From contig MTMA02000006.1 in NCBI GenBank assembly GCA_002011075.2, forward strand, positions 1 to 64,000: DNA of 64,000 nt. The letters run 5' to 3'. The DNA comes from Candidatus Scotarchaeum otlingeri. Lineage in GTDB: Archaea; Thermoproteota; Nitrososphaeria; Geothermarchaeales; JDFR-13. The notes beneath the pieces were generated by a model. It had not been told where the DNA came from, did not search any database, and was given only the letters and a program-made list of their open reading frames with translations. This document shows positions 51,247-59,740 of this stretch, piece by piece. Numbering within the stretch: position 1 is the first letter of the stretch; each line of letters starts with the position of its first letter. The position numbers and the translations under genes are program-made.

Positions 51247-51585
51247 TCAAGTATATAATCGCCAAGTATAACTGCACTTTACACATCTAAAAAATTGCGT
51301 AGTTCCTTCATCTCCAGATCTAGTTTGAACTTCCCAATAATACGCCTTCTCAAAACCGCAACTCGGGCATACTATTTTGGTTGTTGGAAGAAGCTGCTTC
51401 TTCTTATCTTTTTCACTTAGTACTATTATCTTATTCTTACTTTCTATTTTTTCCGACAAGACCTTATTTTCTAATACCTGAGTATATCCACATCTACCAC
51501 ATACTAAAACAGGATCTTCATCTTTGAGCTCAATCTTCATTATTCCTCCGCAATTAGGGCAGAATTTAACAGCCAGATTAATCAC
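51247..51585 (-). CDS. tfs: Transcription factor S (TFIIS-like cleavage factor)
   Basis: 112 residues. N-terminal zinc ribbon CPNCGGIMKIELKDEDPVLVCGRCGY and C-terminal ribbon CPSCGFEKAYYWEVQTRSGDEGTTQFFRCVKCSYTW with the catalytic acidic hairpin (RSGDEGTT). It stimulates RNA cleavage in backtracked RNA polymerase. Overlaps rpoL by 8 nt. Confidence 0.97.
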   Translation of the reverse strand: MINLAVKFCPNCGGIMKIELKDEDPVLVCGRCGYTQVLENKVLSEKIESKNKIIVLSEKDKKKQLLPTTKIVCPSCGFEKAYYWEVQTRSGDEGTTQFFRCVKCSYTWRLYT

Positions 51586-51862
51586 CTATCTCTTTAATTA
51601 TCTCTTCTTTTATATTGACAATCTTATCTATAAATTTTTCAATATCATCTACAATGATTTTAAGGGGTTTTCTAAGGTTTTTCTTCAGACGTATCTCAAA
51701 AACCATCTCTTTAATTAGAGGATGTGTTATATGAAACCCTGCACCCTCAATATTTTCATTTTGCATTAAAGCATGTTGAATCAAATTACCTAAAGTATAA
51801 TCTTCCCCTTTAATTATTAACTTCAATCGATATTTACCGGCTTTTTCCACTTTAATATCCAT
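51578..51862 (-). CDS. rpoL: RNA polymerase subunit RpoL (Rpb11-like)
   Basis: 94 residues from MDIKVEKAGKYRLKLIIKGEDYTLGNLIQHAL, the conserved entry of RpoL. The frame extends upstream to 51904 with ATG at 51877 as an alternative, but family proteins begin close to the chosen Met. It forms the assembly dimer with RpoD. Confidence 0.95.
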   Translation of the reverse strand: MDIKVEKAGKYRLKLIIKGEDYTLGNLIQHALMQNENIEGAGFHITHPLIKEMVFEIRLKKNLRKPLKIIVDDIEKFIDKIVNIKEEIIKEIGD

Positions 51863-51962
51863 AGTATTATGCACCATCCTATATATCGAAATAATTATCC
51901 CCATATAATTTTAGTGAACATATTAATAAATCATGTTATCTTTATCGCATCCTTAGAGTTTA

Positions 51963-52514
51963 TTATAGTAGCTTTCCATATTTAGTAGACAGTTTTCTAT
52001 CCTCATATCTATTACAAACTTTACATTTTACTTTTTTAGATTTTTTATCTCGAACTAGTGCTCTACCACATAACGAACAAAAAGCCAAAATTACGCCAAA
52101 CTCTTTCTTTTCGATAGAAAGATGTATAGTTCGATTGGCTTTACTTATAACTTCAGCATAAATATAGTCTCCAAATTTATACATACGTGATATATCTCTG
52201 TTGTTTCTGTATCGCGGAGGATGAAGTGTACCGGTAAATTTTCTATCCATTACGTTATTATTTACTACAAATATATCGACATATGCATATATACCTGAAA
52301 AATTCGATATTCTTCCTATAGTAGTATCCCCTATATCAATCAATTTTAGCTTCTTAAGCGGTCTAACCGCCAAATTTTTTTCTATAGGATCTATTAATAT
52401 ACTTCCTAAATATAGAGATCTAATAAATCCCTGTTTATCTTCGTATGCTCCCTCCTTAATTATATATTCTTCGATAGTCGCTAATTTATCGCCAGGAATA
52501 ACGATTTTTTTCAT
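51963..52514 (-). CDS. csl4: Exosome subunit Csl4
   Basis: About 183 residues: N-terminal domain, S1 domain (about 55-140, DTTIGRISNFSGIYAYVDIFVV...FKFGDYIYAEVISKANRTIHLSI) and C-terminal zinc ribbon CSLCGRAL...CKVCNRY. It caps the archaeal exosome. ATG at 52514 (MKKIVIPGDKL) is preferred; the frame reaches 52535 inside dph2. Confidence 0.95.
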   Translation of the reverse strand: MKKIVIPGDKLATIEEYIIKEGAYEDKQGFIRSLYLGSILIDPIEKNLAVRPLKKLKLIDIGDTTIGRISNFSGIYAYVDIFVVNNNVMDRKFTGTLHPPRYRNNRDISRMYKFGDYIYAEVISKANRTIHLSIEKKEFGVILAFCSLCGRALVRDKKSKKVKCKVCNRYEDRKLSTKYGKLL

Positions 52515-52515
52515 A

Positions 52516-53520
52516 TTATGGGTACACCTCCTCAAACTTTTTCTTTCCTATTAATATTAAAAATTGCTCCATATTCAACACAGGCTTTTCAAATGCAAAT
52601 ATGTCATCTATTGAAAGTCTAGGGCACGCCGTTTGAATGAACGCTTCTATATTTAAAAAATAACTTAGCTGTTCCTGTGTAATGTTTTCCATCGATATTA
52701 AATAAACTTTTTTGCGAAGCTTTTTCAACTCATCGTATGCAAATCTTGCAGACATGTAATTAAACTGTCCACTCTTTGGTGATATAATCACACCTATCTT
52801 TAGACATTCTCTAGTCTTTTCAATATTATATGCTATTTTAGATAAATATTTTCTTCTTAATTTCTCAAGATCGATGATCCGTTCGTTATGAATGTCTACT
52901 ACAAATGTTGGTTTATTTATCCATAAAGCGACTCCAAGAGCATGAAATACACCACTACTAACAACGAAAAATACATCTATCTTATCCTTTATTTTATGAG
53001 CAGCGCTAATATCACAACCCAGAATTTGTCCTTTAAACATGTAATTATAAACAGGTTTTTCTATGAACACCTGAAAACCATCTCCCTGTAATTGATTTAC
53101 GAGTTCTAGGCTCTGTTTATAATATTGTAAAGAGTTAACCACGCCTATATTGTTATATTGCTTAGCGAGCTTGTATATTTCTAAATACAGTTTTTTAGTT
53201 ATCTTTTTATTTTCAAATAAAGGATAATAAATTACGTTTTCGGGTTTAATAATATTATGCTGAAAAGGGGTGTGTCCAACATGTATAACAATATCTAAAT
53301 CTAGAAGACTGAAAACATTACCTTGTATATCACATCCTCCATAGTTCAAATTTCCATCAATAATTATTTCAATTTCCTTGATCTCCCTCTCGATTTTATC
53401 GGCTAGATATATTAATTTACTTCTAAACCCATTAGGAGACTGAATAAATATTCTTTGTGCACCCTGTTTTTTTATATACTCAATTAATTTCTTTGCATCC
53501 GTGATTATCAATTTATTCAC
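52516..53520 (-). CDS. dph2: Diphthamide biosynthesis radical SAM-like enzyme Dph2
   Basis: 334 residues, GTG start. Three cysteines for the [4Fe-4S] cluster, one per domain: NYGGCDIQ, LGCDISAAH and QTACPRLSIDD. It makes the first 3-amino-3-carboxypropyl modification on EF-2 histidine. It lies between L10e and Csl4. Confidence 0.95.
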   Translation of the reverse strand: MNKLIITDAKKLIEYIKKQGAQRIFIQSPNGFRSKLIYLADKIEREIKEIEIIIDGNLNYGGCDIQGNVFSLLDLDIVIHVGHTPFQHNIIKPENVIYYPLFENKKITKKLYLEIYKLAKQYNNIGVVNSLQYYKQSLELVNQLQGDGFQVFIEKPVYNYMFKGQILGCDISAAHKIKDKIDVFFVVSSGVFHALGVALWINKPTFVVDIHNERIIDLEKLRRKYLSKIAYNIEKTRECLKIGVIISPKSGQFNYMSARFAYDELKKLRKKVYLISMENITQEQLSYFLNIEAFIQTACPRLSIDDIFAFEKPVLNMEQFLILIGKKKFEEVYP

Positions 53521-53560
53521 TCTACTAATTTCTTAAATTATATCCTTAAGACCAAAAGTT

Positions 53561-54058
53561 TTATTTGAGGTCTACTATCTCAACCCTTCCTCCCTTTGGC
53601 AGTTTACTTGCTCCAATCTTTAATATCTTCATTACAATAGGAACAAATTGCTTATATGTCCGTACAAATGCTATTGTTTGGCCTTCTTTGACCGCCGCCG
53701 CCCTTCCAACTGGTTTTCCAAATGCTCTTCTCATTCCTTCCTGAAGCCTATCAGCACCGGCACCCGTCATCATCTTATTTTCTCTAAGCACATGATGAGG
53801 ATGAATCTTTATTTTAAAATGAAAATTATCATGTCCTAGCTTCTTAACCAATAACCTATTAACATTTATTCTTAACGCCTCTAATGCCCTATCACGCACA
53901 AGAACTGTTTCTTTAGCATTAAGTCTAACCTCAACATCATAATCATTTTCGGGGGTTCCCATATCAAACTTAGTTATTCTTGGCTGGGGCGCTCCGTGAA
54001 TATACTCCTCACGTGTATATAATTGTCCCCTAATACTCCTGTAATTTTTCGCTTTCAT
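53561..54058 (-). CDS. rpl10e: 50S ribosomal protein L10e
   Basis: 165 residues. NYRSIRGQLYTREEYIHGAPQPRITKFDMG and MMTGAGADRLQEGMRRAFGKPVGRAA are signature segments. ATG at 54058 lies 6 nt after GAGGTG; the in-frame ATG at 54079 lacks one. It heads the dph2-csl4-rpoL-tfs series of genes. Confidence 0.95.
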   Translation of the reverse strand: MKAKNYRSIRGQLYTREEYIHGAPQPRITKFDMGTPENDYDVEVRLNAKETVLVRDRALEALRINVNRLLVKKLGHDNFHFKIKIHPHHVLRENKMMTGAGADRLQEGMRRAFGKPVGRAAAVKEGQTIAFVRTYKQFVPIVMKILKIGASKLPKGGRVEIVDLK

Positions 54059-54084
54059 CTTCAACACCTCTATATTCATCAGAT

Positions 54085-54846
54085 TTATGGATTGGCACCT
54101 ATATAATCTTTGTCATGCTTATATTTCTGAATATAGTAATAAACTTTTCTAAATACATTGAGCAGCATACCTGCTTCCCTATAATCTGGCACACTACGTC
54201 CAATTATATTTTTAAAAGCTCTTTTCACATGTTTTATATACCTATCGTCATCAATCACGATAGAGACTATCTTTATAAAGTAATCAAGCAATTGGTCTAA
54301 AACTATACGTTCCGCAGGTTTACGGCGAATACTCCCTGAGGGATACAATACAGTAAACAAATTATATAATATAATCGCTGCAGCATTAGAAATATTTAAT
54401 GCTGGATAGTCACTACTGGTCTCTAAACTGAGTAAAACATCGCACTCTTCTATCTCCCGTCTTCTCAATCCCGTGGTCTCTCTACCCAACACCACAGCTA
54501 TATGCCTCAATCTTCTCTCTCTAATGATTGATTTAACTTCCTCGATAGTGACAGGTCTTCTTAGAACATTGCCCCCTCTAACTCTATAAATAGCGGAGGT
54601 CGCTATAGATAGTTCAACATCAGATATCGCTTCTCTAATATTATATACTACTCTCGCGCTTTCCAGAACACTTTGTGCTCGTGAGGAAAATTTATATGCT
54701 ATATCTAATTCTTCTTCATCTAATTGTGGATTTACCAAAACCAACTCTGAGACCGAAAAATTCAACACTAATCTCGCTATCAACCCCAAATTTATACCTC
54801 TAAGTGGCTCCACCAAAACAAGCCTTATATGCGGCTTCTTACTCAT
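54085..54846 (-). CDS. trmJ: SPOUT RNA methyltransferase, TrmJ-like
   Basis: About 253 residues from MSKKPHIRLVLVEPLRGINLGLIARL. The SPOUT knot is visible in VVLGRETTGLRRREIEECDVLLSLETSSDYPALNISNAAAIILYNLF, as in TrmJ, which methylates the 2'-O of tRNA position 32. ATG at 54876 is an alternative start. It precedes L10e. Confidence 0.9.
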   Translation of the reverse strand: MSKKPHIRLVLVEPLRGINLGLIARLVLNFSVSELVLVNPQLDEEELDIAYKFSSRAQSVLESARVVYNIREAISDVELSIATSAIYRVRGGNVLRRPVTIEEVKSIIRERRLRHIAVVLGRETTGLRRREIEECDVLLSLETSSDYPALNISNAAAIILYNLFTVLYPSGSIRRKPAERIVLDQLLDYFIKIVSIVIDDDRYIKHVKRAFKNIIGRSVPDYREAGMLLNVFRKVYYYIQKYKHDKDYIGANP

Positions 54847-54973
54847 AACAATCGCCCTTTCAAAAGGACAATCCATGTAATATGATATAAAAATATGCTA
54901 TTAGACCACTGGATAACTCCTGATTATCAGTTAGAAATTTATTTTTAATTATGAAATCAGAATTTATTACTGT

Positions 54974-56062
54974 ATGCCTACTAACTTACCCGAAAAAGTA
55001 AAGGCGCAATGGAGAAAAGTTGCCAGCACTAAAGACCCGGAATTAAAATTAAATGAGTTAATTAAGTTTTACTCAATGATTCCTAAACATAAAGGAACTA
55101 AAAACTTGGTAAAACAGGTAAAACGTCAAATTGCGAAGTTACGACGTGAACTTGAATCAAAAAGAAAAGTTAAATACAAACAATTCATAGATTCATGGAA
55201 TCAAGAAAAACATGGTGTAGCGAGAATAGCTATTGTTGGATACGACTACCAACAAATAGTTAACCTATTCTGTTTATTAACAGGCAAAGCAATTAATAAC
55301 GAAATATGGAAGTTTGAACCCATATATGGCGTTTTGGATCATGAAGGCCTGCAGTTTCAAACAGTTCTTCTACCTCCTATGGGAATAAGTGAAAACCTCA
55401 ATTATAAAATAATAAATTACTGTAAGAAAAGCGATGTGATTTATATAATATCAGACAATGAAGATATCAGTGAAATAACTAAACAGGCTAAATATTACGG
55501 GCTTTCATTGATAAAACCAAGAGCCTATATAGAAATTAGTAAACAGTCATCGGGAGGAATTAGAGTCATTGGCGCCTACAGCAAGAAAATTAAAGATATA
55601 TTAAATATTTTAAGAGAGTACAATATCAATAATGCGATAGTCCGAATCGAAGGAGAGCCTTCCACAGAAGATATAGAGGCCTCCATTTTAGGTATTAATT
55701 TGTATAGACCCACATTTATCGTAATTCCCAAAGGGAATAAATCGATCATTATATACAGGCTGGGTGATAAAGAAAATCAACAATTATATTCAATTCCTCG
55801 GGACAAAGATAAACTCATAAAGACATTATTAAATGAACTTAACTTGATACGTGTCTATACACGCACAAGGTCTAAGGAATTAGCTAAGAAGCCCATAATT
55901 ATTAAAAAAGGAAGTAATGTATTAGAATTAGCCGGAATAATACACTCAGATTTAAAGAGGAACTTTAAATATGCTGTTCTAAAAAGAGGGTTTAGTAAAG
56001 AGATAAAGGTCTCAGGTAAATATATCTTAGAAGATGGTGATATAATAGAAATACGAACCTAA
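54974..56062 (+). CDS. DRG-like protein with degenerate GTPase domain and intact TGS domain
   Basis: 362 residues, the length of archaeal DRG GTPases. The N-terminal basic helices (KQVKRQIAKLRRELESKRK) precede the G-domain position, where GYDYQQIVN (about 89-97) replaces the DRG P-loop GFPSVGKST. YGVLDHEGLQFQTVLLPPMGI aligns with DRG segment PGxxEYxGAxIQLLDLPGI, but the DxPG motif is lost; the NKxD position is IPKGNK. About 297-361 form a TGS domain (VYTRTRSKELAKKPIIIKKGSN...EDGDIIEI). Eukaryotic DRGs act on ribosomes. It is a single transcription unit; function unknown. Confidence 0.8.
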   Translation: MPTNLPEKVKAQWRKVASTKDPELKLNELIKFYSMIPKHKGTKNLVKQVKRQIAKLRRELESKRKVKYKQFIDSWNQEKHGVARIAIVGYDYQQIVNLFCLLTGKAINNEIWKFEPIYGVLDHEGLQFQTVLLPPMGISENLNYKIINYCKKSDVIYIISDNEDISEITKQAKYYGLSLIKPRAYIEISKQSSGGIRVIGAYSKKIKDILNILREYNINNAIVRIEGEPSTEDIEASILGINLYRPTFIVIPKGNKSIIIYRLGDKENQQLYSIPRDKDKLIKTLLNELNLIRVYTRTRSKELAKKPIIIKKGSNVLELAGIIHSDLKRNFKYAVLKRGFSKEIKVSGKYILEDGDIIEIRT

Positions 56063-56063
56063 T

Positions 56064-56684
56064 TCATCTTTTCTTATGTACAAATAAATAATATTTTTCT
56101 CCATCAATTAATTCTTCAATAATTCTTCCAGTTAGCGCTTTGACAGGATCTACTCCTGTACGTTCAAAGAAATCCCTAAAGCTTACAAATTCTTTGTTAT
56201 TTCTTTCGTTGATAATATGCCACATCTTTTTTTTCCCAATATTGGGAAGTAACTCGAGTGCATGCAGCTTATGAGTAATAGGTCCACTTTTATTCATGAA
56301 CTCAAGCCATCTGCCTTCATTAGTCATAATTATCTTCGCTATGGCATTTTCTAGCTCTCCCTTGGCAATACTCGTTAACATATCGTATCCTATTCTTTGT
56401 ATTACACTACTAACCCGTGCTTTTGGCCCGGGACCAATGTATATGCGGTCTAACAAGTTAACCTGTGCCTCCGGCTTAAATAAAACTTCAAATAACATAA
56501 AATATTGTTCACCTATGACCTGTCCTATTCTTCCTCTTATATGGACTTTCCTCTCTATTCTTCTTCCTCCTTTAAATTCAAAGGTTCTTATCGTACGCTC
56601 ATCTTCAAAAACATCTAATACATACCCATAATACTCTATCTTCTTAGCTTTAAATTTATCTACTTGTCTAGAGAAATCAGGCAT
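56064..56684 (-). CDS. DUF655 protein
   Basis: 206 residues. N-terminal OB-like segment (KAKKIEYYGYVLDVFEDERTIRTFEFKGGRRIERKVHIRGRIGQVIGEQYFMLFEVL) and C-terminal helix-hairpin-helix elements (HALELLPNIGKKKMWHIINER; DFFERTGVDPVKAL). This is the pattern of archaeal DUF655, predicted RNA/DNA-binding. It lies in a conserved context beside RpoF and L21e. Confidence 0.9.
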   Translation of the reverse strand: MPDFSRQVDKFKAKKIEYYGYVLDVFEDERTIRTFEFKGGRRIERKVHIRGRIGQVIGEQYFMLFEVLFKPEAQVNLLDRIYIGPGPKARVSSVIQRIGYDMLTSIAKGELENAIAKIIMTNEGRWLEFMNKSGPITHKLHALELLPNIGKKKMWHIINERNNKEFVSFRDFFERTGVDPVKALTGRIIEELIDGEKYYLFVHKKR

Positions 56685-56717
56685 ATTCTCCCTTTTTAAA
56701 TAATTATTTTTTAAATA

Positions 56718-57047
56718 TTATTGGCTCATCACTTCATTAATAACTTCTAATATCTTATCCACAAACTCCCGGGGTAATATTGTTTTTCTATGATGAAATA
56801 TATCTCTTATCTCTTCAGAAGCTCTTGGCATAAGATTTACAATCATCACAGCTTCTTCCTCGGTTATGTCTCCAATTTCTAACAGTTTTTTCTTAAGTAT
56901 TAAGGCTTTTTCACCATCAACTTTAGAAAATTTATTTACATATTCAAATGTTCTTCTTTGAAGTGAACCCATATCCTCCTCTATTGATAAAGCATTCTTC
57001 ATTTCCGGATTACTTATAGCCTCTTTACCAAGTATCCGTTTAGCCAT
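56718..57047 (-). CDS. rpoF: RNA polymerase subunit RpoF (Rpb4-like)
   Basis: 109 residues, helical: RTFEYVNKFSKVDGEKALILKKKLLEIGDITEEEAVMIVNLMPRASEEI. This matches archaeal Rpb4/RpoF. With RpoE it forms the stalk of RNA polymerase. It lies between L21e and DUF655, as in many archaea. Confidence 0.93.
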   Translation of the reverse strand: MAKRILGKEAISNPEMKNALSIEEDMGSLQRRTFEYVNKFSKVDGEKALILKKKLLEIGDITEEEAVMIVNLMPRASEEIRDIFHHRKTILPREFVDKILEVINEVMSQ

Positions 57048-57095
57048 TATATTTTCACCATCTACACATTATATTTTTCTATGGATAAATTAAAT

Positions 57096-57386
57096 CTACG
57101 AGGGTAGGGGCCTCAAGTGTTCAGGCGGGATAATAAGCAATACTTTTTTATTGCCTTTTTTAGTTTCTACTTCTAAAGATCTACCCCTAAATTTTTTTAT
57201 AATACCGACTTTTCCGTGATATCTCCTATGAGGCATCCCCTTATGATATGAGGGATCTATATATATAACTACTCTATCTCCCCTTTTCAAATTATTTATT
57301 TTTAACAGTTTATCACTAAATCCTTGATTAATTTTTTTCGAAAGTATTTTTCTCGATTTATATCTATACCCTTTAGATGAAGGCAT
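57096..57386 (-). CDS. rpl21e: 50S ribosomal protein L21e
   Basis: 96 residues, basic. GYRYKSRKILSKK, RGDRVVIYIDPSYHKGMPHRRYHGKVGII and RGRSLEVETKKGNKKVLLIIPPEHLRPL are the family blocks. It is followed by rpoF and DUF655. Confidence 0.97.
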   Translation of the reverse strand: MPSSKGYRYKSRKILSKKINQGFSDKLLKINNLKRGDRVVIYIDPSYHKGMPHRRYHGKVGIIKKFRGRSLEVETKKGNKKVLLIIPPEHLRPLPS

Positions 57387-57469
57387 AACGCATCCCCTAT
57401 ACCGCTAATACTCATATACCATATAAAGATGACCTTTTAAATATTAAATATTACATAATATCAATTAAA

Positions 57470-58402
57470 TTAAATCCATATAGATAGGTCGCTTATACCC
57501 ATTCTACTTAATTCCTTGTTTTCGTTTATTTTATAAAGAACCTGTGTTTCGTTGATTTTTATTTTAGGACTAATTATTGATATTCTAAAATTTAATTTGT
57601 CATCTTTATATTCCACGCCAAATTTCCATTTTTTTCCTTGGCTCAATGCCAATAAAAATTCGCCTAATATATATTCAATGGAATTATCGGGTGTTTTACC
57701 AGTGTAATTACATTGTGCGCATCCGACGCCTTTACAGTTACTGCATGTTTTAGCAAATATCGGTATATCATCTATCCGCACGATATTTCCGGTTATTACG
57801 ATCTTTTTAGTGCGTATTTTAATCTTTTCATTAACAATATTTACTATAATCTGGATATCGGGGTTTGTATCGCTATAATTTAATTTAGTTAATTTCATTA
57901 TCCGTTTACCAATCTCTCTTGAAATTTCATTACGTATATTCTCACCATACTTTATATTATACCTTACTCTGAATTCATCTTCCTTCTTTTCTATATCTGA
58001 TATTCTCTCCACTCCAACTGCAAATGTCTCGAATCTATAATCTTTCATCTCCCTGGAGATCCTGATAGCCATATCATCAATTTTATCCATTAATCCCCCA
58101 CATATCTCACAGGTACTATTTTCGCTATGTTGTTTTTCGACAAGCATCTCCTTTCTATATACTAATTCCAATAGATTCTTCTTTTTATACCGATATAATA
58201 ATGAAGCCAATAATTTTTTATCAACCCGTTTTCCTTCATATAATTCATGACTTAACTCCATCACCAATACTTCCAATATTATTTCTCCCCGCTCTTTATT
58301 CGACAAACCAGTCGACAGCCCGGCAAACATCCTCCCTAAACAGTTAATGCACAAATAATGATTCTTAACTATTCTACGTGCAAGCTTCAAAAAGTCATCC
58401 AT
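57470..58402 (-). CDS. Pus10-like protein lacking the pseudouridine synthase catalytic domain
   Basis: 310 residues. Residues 1-105 carry the Pus10 N-terminal zinc knuckles (LCINCLGRMFAGLSTGLSNKERGE; CEICGG). THUMP-like alpha/beta sequence follows to about 215, then the Pus10 entry to the synthase domain, CSNCKGVGCAQC...SIEYILGEFLLALSQGKKWKF (258-261). In family members this is followed by the catalytic GREDxDxRMLG and about 150 residues more; here it continues GVEYKDDKLNFRISIISPK and stops after 50 residues. The 83-nt gap downstream cannot encode the missing part. It probably lacks activity. Operon with SRP54. Confidence 0.8.
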   Translation of the reverse strand: MDDFLKLARRIVKNHYLCINCLGRMFAGLSTGLSNKERGEIILEVLVMELSHELYEGKRVDKKLLASLLYRYKKKNLLELVYRKEMLVEKQHSENSTCEICGGLMDKIDDMAIRISREMKDYRFETFAVGVERISDIEKKEDEFRVRYNIKYGENIRNEISREIGKRIMKLTKLNYSDTNPDIQIIVNIVNEKIKIRTKKIVITGNIVRIDDIPIFAKTCSNCKGVGCAQCNYTGKTPDNSIEYILGEFLLALSQGKKWKFGVEYKDDKLNFRISIISPKIKINETQVLYKINENKELSRMGISDLSIWI

Positions 58403-58408
58403 ATATAT

Positions 58409-59740
58409 TTATCCCCTCTTAGCCATCATCTTATCGAACATCTTAAGAAACTTCTTGCTTTTTCTAGATCTTAACAGCTTTTTACTCATATGATACTGCT
58501 TTATCATTTCTTTTATTGTTTTTTCATCTACCCCGGACCCTCGGCTGATTCTTTTGATACGTGAACCCTTTATAAGGGTCGGATCTATTTTTTCTTCATC
58601 CGTCATAGAATCTAATGCATGTCTCCATTTAGCAACTTTTTCCTCGGCCTCTTCTAACATCTCTTTAGGTATTTTTAGGTTAAACCCTGGAATAAGGTCA
58701 AGCAATTTGGAAAAACTTCCTACTTTCCGAATTTCCTCCATTTGCTCTACTAGATCAACCAACGTAAATTTGCCTTTTGCAATTTGAAGAAGCCGTTCTC
58801 GTTTTTCTTTATCAATCTCTATAGCCTTAAATTTTTGTAGTAATGTTTCTAAATCACCCAATCCAAGTAATCTGCCCACAAATCGTGGAGGATTATACTC
58901 TTCAAAATCTTCTATTTTTTCTCCAGTTCCAATAAAGTAAATTTTTGCGCCTGTAGCTGCCGCTGCAGATAATGCCCCACCTCCTTTAGCAGTGCCATCT
59001 AACTTAGTTATTATAATGCCCCCAATTTGTGTAGCTTCATTAAATGCCTTGGCTTGACTATATGCTTGTTGACCTATACTGGCGTCTATAACCAAAAATA
59101 TTATATCGGGTTTAATTATCATAGACAATTGCTTCATTTCTTTCATTAAACTTTCTTCATCCTTATGTCTACCGGCTGTATCAATGATAACAATATCTAT
59201 ATCTCGTTTAGAGAAATACTCTATTCCTTTAGTAGCTAATTCTACACTATTCTCTGTTTTAATATCGAAAAATTCAATATTAAGACCGCTAATAAGCTGT
59301 TTAAGCTGTAATCTTGCTGCCGGTCTATATGTATCGGTACTAAAAACTCCTACTTTATAATTACTATCCCTAAAATATTTGGCTAACTTTGCCGCCGTAG
59401 TAGTTTTTCCAGATCCCTGAATACCCACCAACAAAATTTTGTTTAATCCTTTCTTAATTTTTAACTCAGGCGTACTTCCTCCTAACAATTGAGTAAACTC
59501 ATCATAAATTATCTTTATTATATGTTCTCTTATAGTGATTCCTCGAGGAGGTTCTGTTGATAAGGCTTTTTCTTCGATTCTTTTAGTCATCTCAAATACA
59601 ATCTTAACGTTTACATCAGAAAGTAAAAGTCCTTTCTGAATTTCTTTTAGTACTTCTCTTACAACTTTTTGATCTATTACGGCTTTACCTTTAAGTTTAT
59701 CAATAGCTTTTCTCAATTTGCCTTTTAATTCATCTAACAT
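58409..59740 (-). CDS. srp54: Signal recognition particle GTPase SRP54
   Basis: 443 residues. N domain, G domain with GIQGSGKTTTAAKLAKYFR, DTAGRHKDEE and TKLDGTAKGGGAL, then the M domain with Met-rich helices (MTDEEKIDPTLI..., MIKQYHMSKKLL). It binds 7S RNA and signal peptides. It lies 6 nt upstream of the Pus10-like gene. Confidence 0.98.
   Translation of the reverse strand: MLDELKGKLRKAIDKLKGKAVIDQKVVREVLKEIQKGLLLSDVNVKIVFEMTKRIEEKALSTEPPRGITIREHIIKIIYDEFTQLLGGSTPELKIKKGLNKILLVGIQGSGKTTTAAKLAKYFRDSNYKVGVFSTDTYRPAARLQLKQLISGLNIEFFDIKTENSVELATKGIEYFSKRDIDIVIIDTAGRHKDEESLMKEMKQLSMIIKPDIIFLVIDASIGQQAYSQAKAFNEATQIGGIIITKLDGTAKGGGALSAAAATGAKIYFIGTGEKIEDFEEYNPPRFVGRLLGLGDLETLLQKFKAIEIDKEKRERLLQIAKGKFTLVDLVEQMEEIRKVGSFSKLLDLIPGFNLKIPKEMLEEAEEKVAKWRHALDSMTDEEKIDPTLIKGSRIKRISRGSGVDEKTIKEMIKQYHMSKKLLRSRKSKKFLKMFDKMMAKRG

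Follow-up and report, generated by a model that had tools for sequence, protein, structure and literature searches.

The window, by which we mean the whole 64,000-nucleotide stretch of Candidatus Scotarchaeum otlingeri DNA that was analyzed (contig MTMA02000006.1), encodes a protein that clearly descends from the DRG family, with its TGS domain kept, its G domain eroded and its GTPase motifs gone. The motif-less protein is a real, well-supported pseudo-GTPase derivative of DRG and is not to be filed as a DRG GTPase. A first-pass annotation, made from the letters alone, had described it in much these terms, and the description was borne out by sequence search, AlphaFold and Foldseek, synteny, and selection in relatives. 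The classification as a pseudo-GTPase draws on the predicted G fold, which is kept, on the loss of the catalytic motifs, and on selection measured on related pairs, not on the window gene. Coordinates of the protein, its parts and its neighbors are given in Table 1.

Table 1. Position, strand and basis of assignment of the DRG-derived protein, its parts and the flanking genes in the window.
Feature	Coordinates	Strand	Basis
Pseudo-GTPase derivative of the archaeal DRG family, 362 aa	54974..56062	+	Sequence searches, fold prediction, Foldseek
N-terminal extension and helix-turn-helix (HTH), residues 1-66, basic	54974..55171	+	Model helices 7-18, 22-35, 40-67
Eroded G domain, first part, residues 79-184	55208..55525	+	No Pfam MMR_HSR1 match; low identity
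P-loop (G1) position, residues 89-97, reads GYDYQQIVN	55238..55264	+	Alignment, model
G3 (DxxG) position, residues 132-138, reads LLPPMGI	55367..55387	+	Alignment
S5D2L domain, residues 185-244 (Pfam MMR_HSR1_Xtn)	55526..55705	+	Pfam; all 70 family members match
Eroded G domain, second part, residues 245-290, fastest-changing part	55706..55843	+	dN/dS, identity
G4 (NKxD) position, residues 251-256, reads IPKGNK	55724..55741	+	Alignment
TGS domain, residues 291-362	55844..56059	+	Pfam E 7e-8; pLDDT ~97
SpoU-type RNA methyltransferase, conserved flank	54085..54876	-	Neighbor comparison
Ribosomal protein uL16 (L10e)	53561..54079	-	Neighbor comparison
DUF655 protein, conserved flank on the other side	56064..56684	-	Neighbor comparison
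RNA polymerase Rpb4/RpoF and ribosomal protein L21e	56718..57386	-	Neighbor comparison

The frame is clean from ATG to TAA over its 362 residues, as annotated, and the chance of a 361-codon open frame at the local base composition was ~2e-14. Pfam placed the TGS domain at residues 292-362 (above the curated cut-off) and MMR_HSR1_Xtn, the S5D2L-type DRG extension, at residues 194-256 (E 9e-8, slightly below cut-off), and no match to the GTPase domain MMR_HSR1 was obtained in the 362-aa protein. Residues 36-360 aligned to both yeast Rbg1 and Rbg2 (phmmer, E 4e-13 to 1e-12), and these two were the sole good matches when the sequences of solved structures were searched. Homology to Rbg1/Rbg2 was full-length (phmmer; Foldseek match to 4a9a, E 1.3e-21), and the DRG domain order was recovered from Pfam and the predicted helices and strands, with the HTH followed by an S5D2L inside the G domain and a C-terminal TGS. 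All three DRG GTPase motifs, G1, G3 and G4, were missing. Membership in YchF/YGR210 was rejected (26.6 bits vs. a family cut-off of 387).

The three motif readings of the first-pass annotation were correct and lie at homologous positions in the alignment, with some uncertainty in the placement of the lost motifs wherever identity is low. Neither a corrected alignment nor another reading frame recovered an intact P-loop; GxxxxGK[ST] was absent from all six frames of 54601-56400, which means that no P-loop is concealed by a frameshift. The near-invariant residues of the N-terminal region are N4, L5, K25, P37-K38-H39-K40, T42, L45, L56 and E59.

The structure was predicted with AlphaFold2 using an alignment of 70 family members (pLDDT 91.8, pTM 0.76), and a DRG-like fold with a TGS domain was returned, as the annotation would have it. 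The best PDB matches for the model in Foldseek were Rbg1 (E 1.3e-21) and Rbg2 (1.4e-14), with a TM of only ~0.5 to Rbg1, and the predicted domain arrangement may therefore differ. A Thermococcus member with an intact P-loop, used as a control, matched Rbg1 at E 2.2e-31 with a TM of 0.62-0.69, and reached 1250 PDB matches at E < 0.001 vs. 28 for the window protein. These fewer and weaker matches indicate a G fold that is recognizable yet eroded. In the control model, the P-loop lysine (94) is the first residue of the helix that follows the loop; in the window-protein model this helix begins at 92, three residues before 95, the equivalent of the control's lysine; judging from this earlier start, the P-loop residues seem to have been taken into the helix in the window protein.

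Whole-genome and alignment-based searches showed the protein to be part of a DRG-like family that is broad among archaea and recognizable by its start, M[VP]TNLPxEAKAxW, and by a near-invariant PKHKGT. The family spans Thermococci, Baldrarchaeota, Bathyarchaeota, Methanodesulfokora, Sulfolobales, Desulfurococcales, Thermoproteales and part of Nitrososphaeria. Motifs were compared in an alignment of 78 rows (69 family members and 9 canonical Nitrososphaeria DRGs), and the P-loop was scored at the P-loop columns only, since the S5D2L holds false GKS/GRS strings. The canonical Nitrososphaeria DRGs carried GxxxxGKS, DLPG and NKxD in 9/9 rows. Among the 69 family rows, the P-loop read GxxxxGK[ST] in 40 and GR[ST] in 9, and was lacking in 20; it is one residue shorter in many members. 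It is kept in Thermococcus, Baldrarchaeota and most Thermoproteia. All motifs are lost in two lineages, the Nitrososphaeria clade that includes the window genome and the Sulfolobaceae, in which the P-loop was absent from 30/30 homologues examined; records labelled Sulfolobales from outside the Sulfolobaceae (L106, L113, L116) retain it. The first-pass annotation had taken the archaeal relatives to be strict GTPases, which is wrong, as motif loss or decay is widespread in the family; orthologues, for which it had proposed to search, do exist, and it missed the scale of a loss that spans a large Nitrososphaeria clade together with the Sulfolobaceae, with partial decay extending over the whole family. 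Over 70 members, Pfam matched TGS in 70/70, Xtn in 70/70 and MMR_HSR1 in 61/70, and the 9 members missed by MMR_HSR1 equal the number of motif-less members in that set.

A P-loop with lysine changed to arginine (GxTNVGRSS) was seen in many Bathyarchaeota (L054, L058, L065, L069, L084, L090 and others) and in Methanodesulfokora (L059, L071). The arginine-type Bathyarchaeota members usually still have NKxD, and the arginine P-loop is possibly an intermediate state that binds nucleotide and is inactive. A full DxxG was found in 0/69 family rows, P-loop members included; the G3 position reads VEVPG in Thermococcus and EAPA or DTPP in most other family rows. Given this, the entire archaeal family may hydrolyze GTP unusually or slowly. 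In one family of the class (f7; L023-L028), the proteins are ~321-326 aa long and the second half of the G domain is almost gone.

The tree grouped the 17 motif-less Nitrososphaeria rows (the window protein and 16 others) in a single supported clade and put the three Sulfolobaceae rows in a separate one, and about the same picture was obtained when the G-domain columns were omitted. Two separate complete losses would be the simplest count on these sequences; the AU test did not reject a single joint loss, either on all columns (p 0.32) or with the G-domain columns removed (p 0.07). The ancestor was probably a DRG-like GTPase of archaea that belonged to the TNLP...PKHKGT type and had a P-loop.

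Selection was estimated in eight pairs of close motif-less relatives using a simple Nei-Gojobori method, with some dS values saturated, and dN/dS over the whole gene was 0.04-0.12. The second half of the G domain was the least constrained part in most pairs (dN/dS up to 0.32). Mean identity of the N-terminal hairpin was 0.60 in the pseudo clade and equally among P-loop members, and that of the first half of the G domain was 0.26 in the pseudo clade vs. 0.43 in P-loop members. G89, P134 and D154 are near-invariant in the G domain family-wide. The best relative of the window gene has 44-46% identity; as this is no close relative, selection on the window gene was judged from its kin. The motif-less members are under purifying selection, and the window gene presumably is too.

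On the opposite strand, the gene is surrounded by a conserved information-processing run (51247-59740) of TFS, RpoL, Csl4, Dph2, uL16, SpoU methyltransferase, DUF655, RpoF, L21e, Pus10 and SRP54. The same flanks (SpoU methyltransferase, uL16, DUF655, RpoF and L21e) were found in other members of the window's family and class. The P-loop form of Baldrarchaeota also has the flanking genes of the pseudo form, and this common neighborhood supports orthology of the two.

The separate canonical DRG for which the annotation had proposed to look was found neither in the window genome nor in the other family-carrying genomes searched. With the window protein as the query, no second DRG was detected in the window genome even at E 1; this metagenome-assembled genome (MAG) is 88% complete, which falls short of proving that this particular organism has no canonical DRG. 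A canonical DRG used as the query retrieved the family member and no second full-length DRG in 41 other family-carrying genomes, and each of 31 Sulfolobaceae genomes had one copy only. In a class-wide search of 250 genomes, the family was present in ~40 and a canonical DRG in ~195, and among the matches listed no genome had both. A review describes the DRG gene as fairly widespread in archaea and perhaps present only once in each species (PMC8629797). The canonical DRGs that lack the N-terminal extension (L143-L151) come from genomes with no window-type protein, and most of them are encoded outside the ribosomal gene cluster; their location away from the cluster suggests that one form was replaced by the other. 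Neither the pseudo-DRG nor DUF655 was found in a genus of the same family as the window genome (g2; G001, G005 and G008, drafts, 72-74% complete). As the neighbor DUF655 is missing there too, this is not readable as true loss, and the bins may lack this region. No DFRP_C match was obtained in the window genome, and archaeal DRGs may have no DFRP partner (PMC8629797).

We consider it likely that the window protein is the sole DRG orthologue of its genome, turned pseudo-GTPase, and that it docks at the factor/A site of the ribosome with no switch driven by GTP; both ribosome binding and the absence of GTP binding are what we infer from its sequence. In yeast Rbg2, the TGS contacts the small subunit, the G domain and HTH contact the stalk base and the sarcin-ricin loop, and the S5D2L contacts the A-site tRNA (PMC8040806), and in yeast Rbg1 the TGS is needed for polysome association (PMC3510508). 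With the HTH, S5D2L and TGS kept and the G domain left as a scaffold only, a nucleotide-independent binder of the factor/A site is proposed. It would dock in the factor-binding/A site as Rbg2 does: the TGS would touch the small subunit, the S5D2L would meet the A-site tRNA, and the stalk base and sarcin-ricin loop would be contacted by the HTH and what remains of the G scaffold. So placed, it might steady tRNA on slow or stalled ribosomes, and it could be released through binding competition (e.g., with elongation factor 2) in place of GTP hydrolysis. Counting against the proposal, GTPase activity was reported to be absolutely required in yeast Rbg1 (PMC3510508), and a form that lacks it may therefore have taken on a changed job. 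The TM of only ~0.5 to Rbg1, the uncertain placement of the lost motifs, the lack of a DFRP_C match and the 88% completeness of the genome also weigh against it. For the wider claim, that the only DRG of a large Nitrososphaeria clade and of the Sulfolobaceae works without nucleotide, that the core archaeal DRG function is GTP-free, and that at least two losses of the GTPase followed that of G3, we regard the chances as evenly balanced.

Alternatively, the protein might have left the ribosome altogether, binding RNA or tRNA and having no factor-site role, for example in tRNA or rRNA handling together with the neighboring SpoU methyltransferase. That conserved neighbor is indeed an RNA methyltransferase, and the most drifted part of the protein is the G-domain face, which helps Rbg2 to contact the large subunit. 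We nevertheless find this unlikely, as the HTH, S5D2L and TGS, the parts through which Rbg2 contacts the ribosome and the A-site tRNA (PMC8040806), are kept in order and spacing, and the neighbors are general translation genes, with gene order alone a weak guide in archaea.

The near-invariance of G89, P134 and D154 could instead mark a non-standard pocket which still binds nucleotide, so that the protein would switch without the usual motifs, and pseudo-GTPases that bind GTP do exist (the N-terminal domain of p190RhoGAP, PMC10211241). This appears improbable: G1, G3 and G4 were lost together, the P-loop is a residue short in many members, family f7 has lost nearly all of the second G half, and the model, unlike the control, places the P-loop residues in a helix. 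A decaying gene or a sequencing artefact, with the true DRG elsewhere in the genome, might be suspected of a draft assembly that is 88% complete. It is very improbable here, since the frame is clean, related pairs are under purifying selection, no frame holds a P-loop and no second DRG was found, and since the same state recurs across numerous independent genomes, some of them assembled as a single contig (G003, G017; Sulfolobaceae).

Few GTPases linked to translation in archaea and eukaryotes are as highly conserved as the DRG proteins, whose GTPase is reported to be indispensable in yeast. An orthologue set in which the GTPase is intact, weakened (Lys to Arg) or gone bears on which part of DRG function needs GTP, and as the motif-less form is the only copy in the Sulfolobaceae, the question is testable in genetically tractable laboratory archaea. 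No earlier description of a motif-less DRG form was found in the literature searched, of which coverage was partial.

The window protein resembles the DRG GTPases (yeast Rbg1/Rbg2, human DRG1/DRG2 and canonical archaeal DRG) in the order of HTH, G domain interrupted by S5D2L, and TGS, in full-length sequence and fold, and in having one copy per archaeal genome. It differs from them in lacking G1/G3/G4, in its longer N-terminal extension (TNLPxEAKAxW), and in that no DFRP partner was found; canonical Nitrososphaeria DRGs start with MGIPEKI and, unlike the window gene, are mostly encoded away from the ribosomal gene cluster. The P-loop members of its own family (Thermococcus, Baldrarchaeota, Desulfurococcales, Thermoproteales) have the same N-terminal extension, S5D2L and TGS, and differ in keeping GxxxxGK[ST] and usually NKxD, although the full DxxG is missing there too. 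YchF/YGR210-like Obg GTPases share a G domain and a C-terminal TGS, but the match is weak and confined to the TGS part, and they do not have the DRG-type arrangement of HTH and S5D2L. Eukaryotic pseudo-GTPases (CENP-M, p190RhoGAP domains, Rnd; PMC10211241) have likewise kept the G fold and lost the motifs, with a presumed binding role; they belong to other GTPase families and tasks, whereas the window protein is a single-copy archaeal protein of a translation family.
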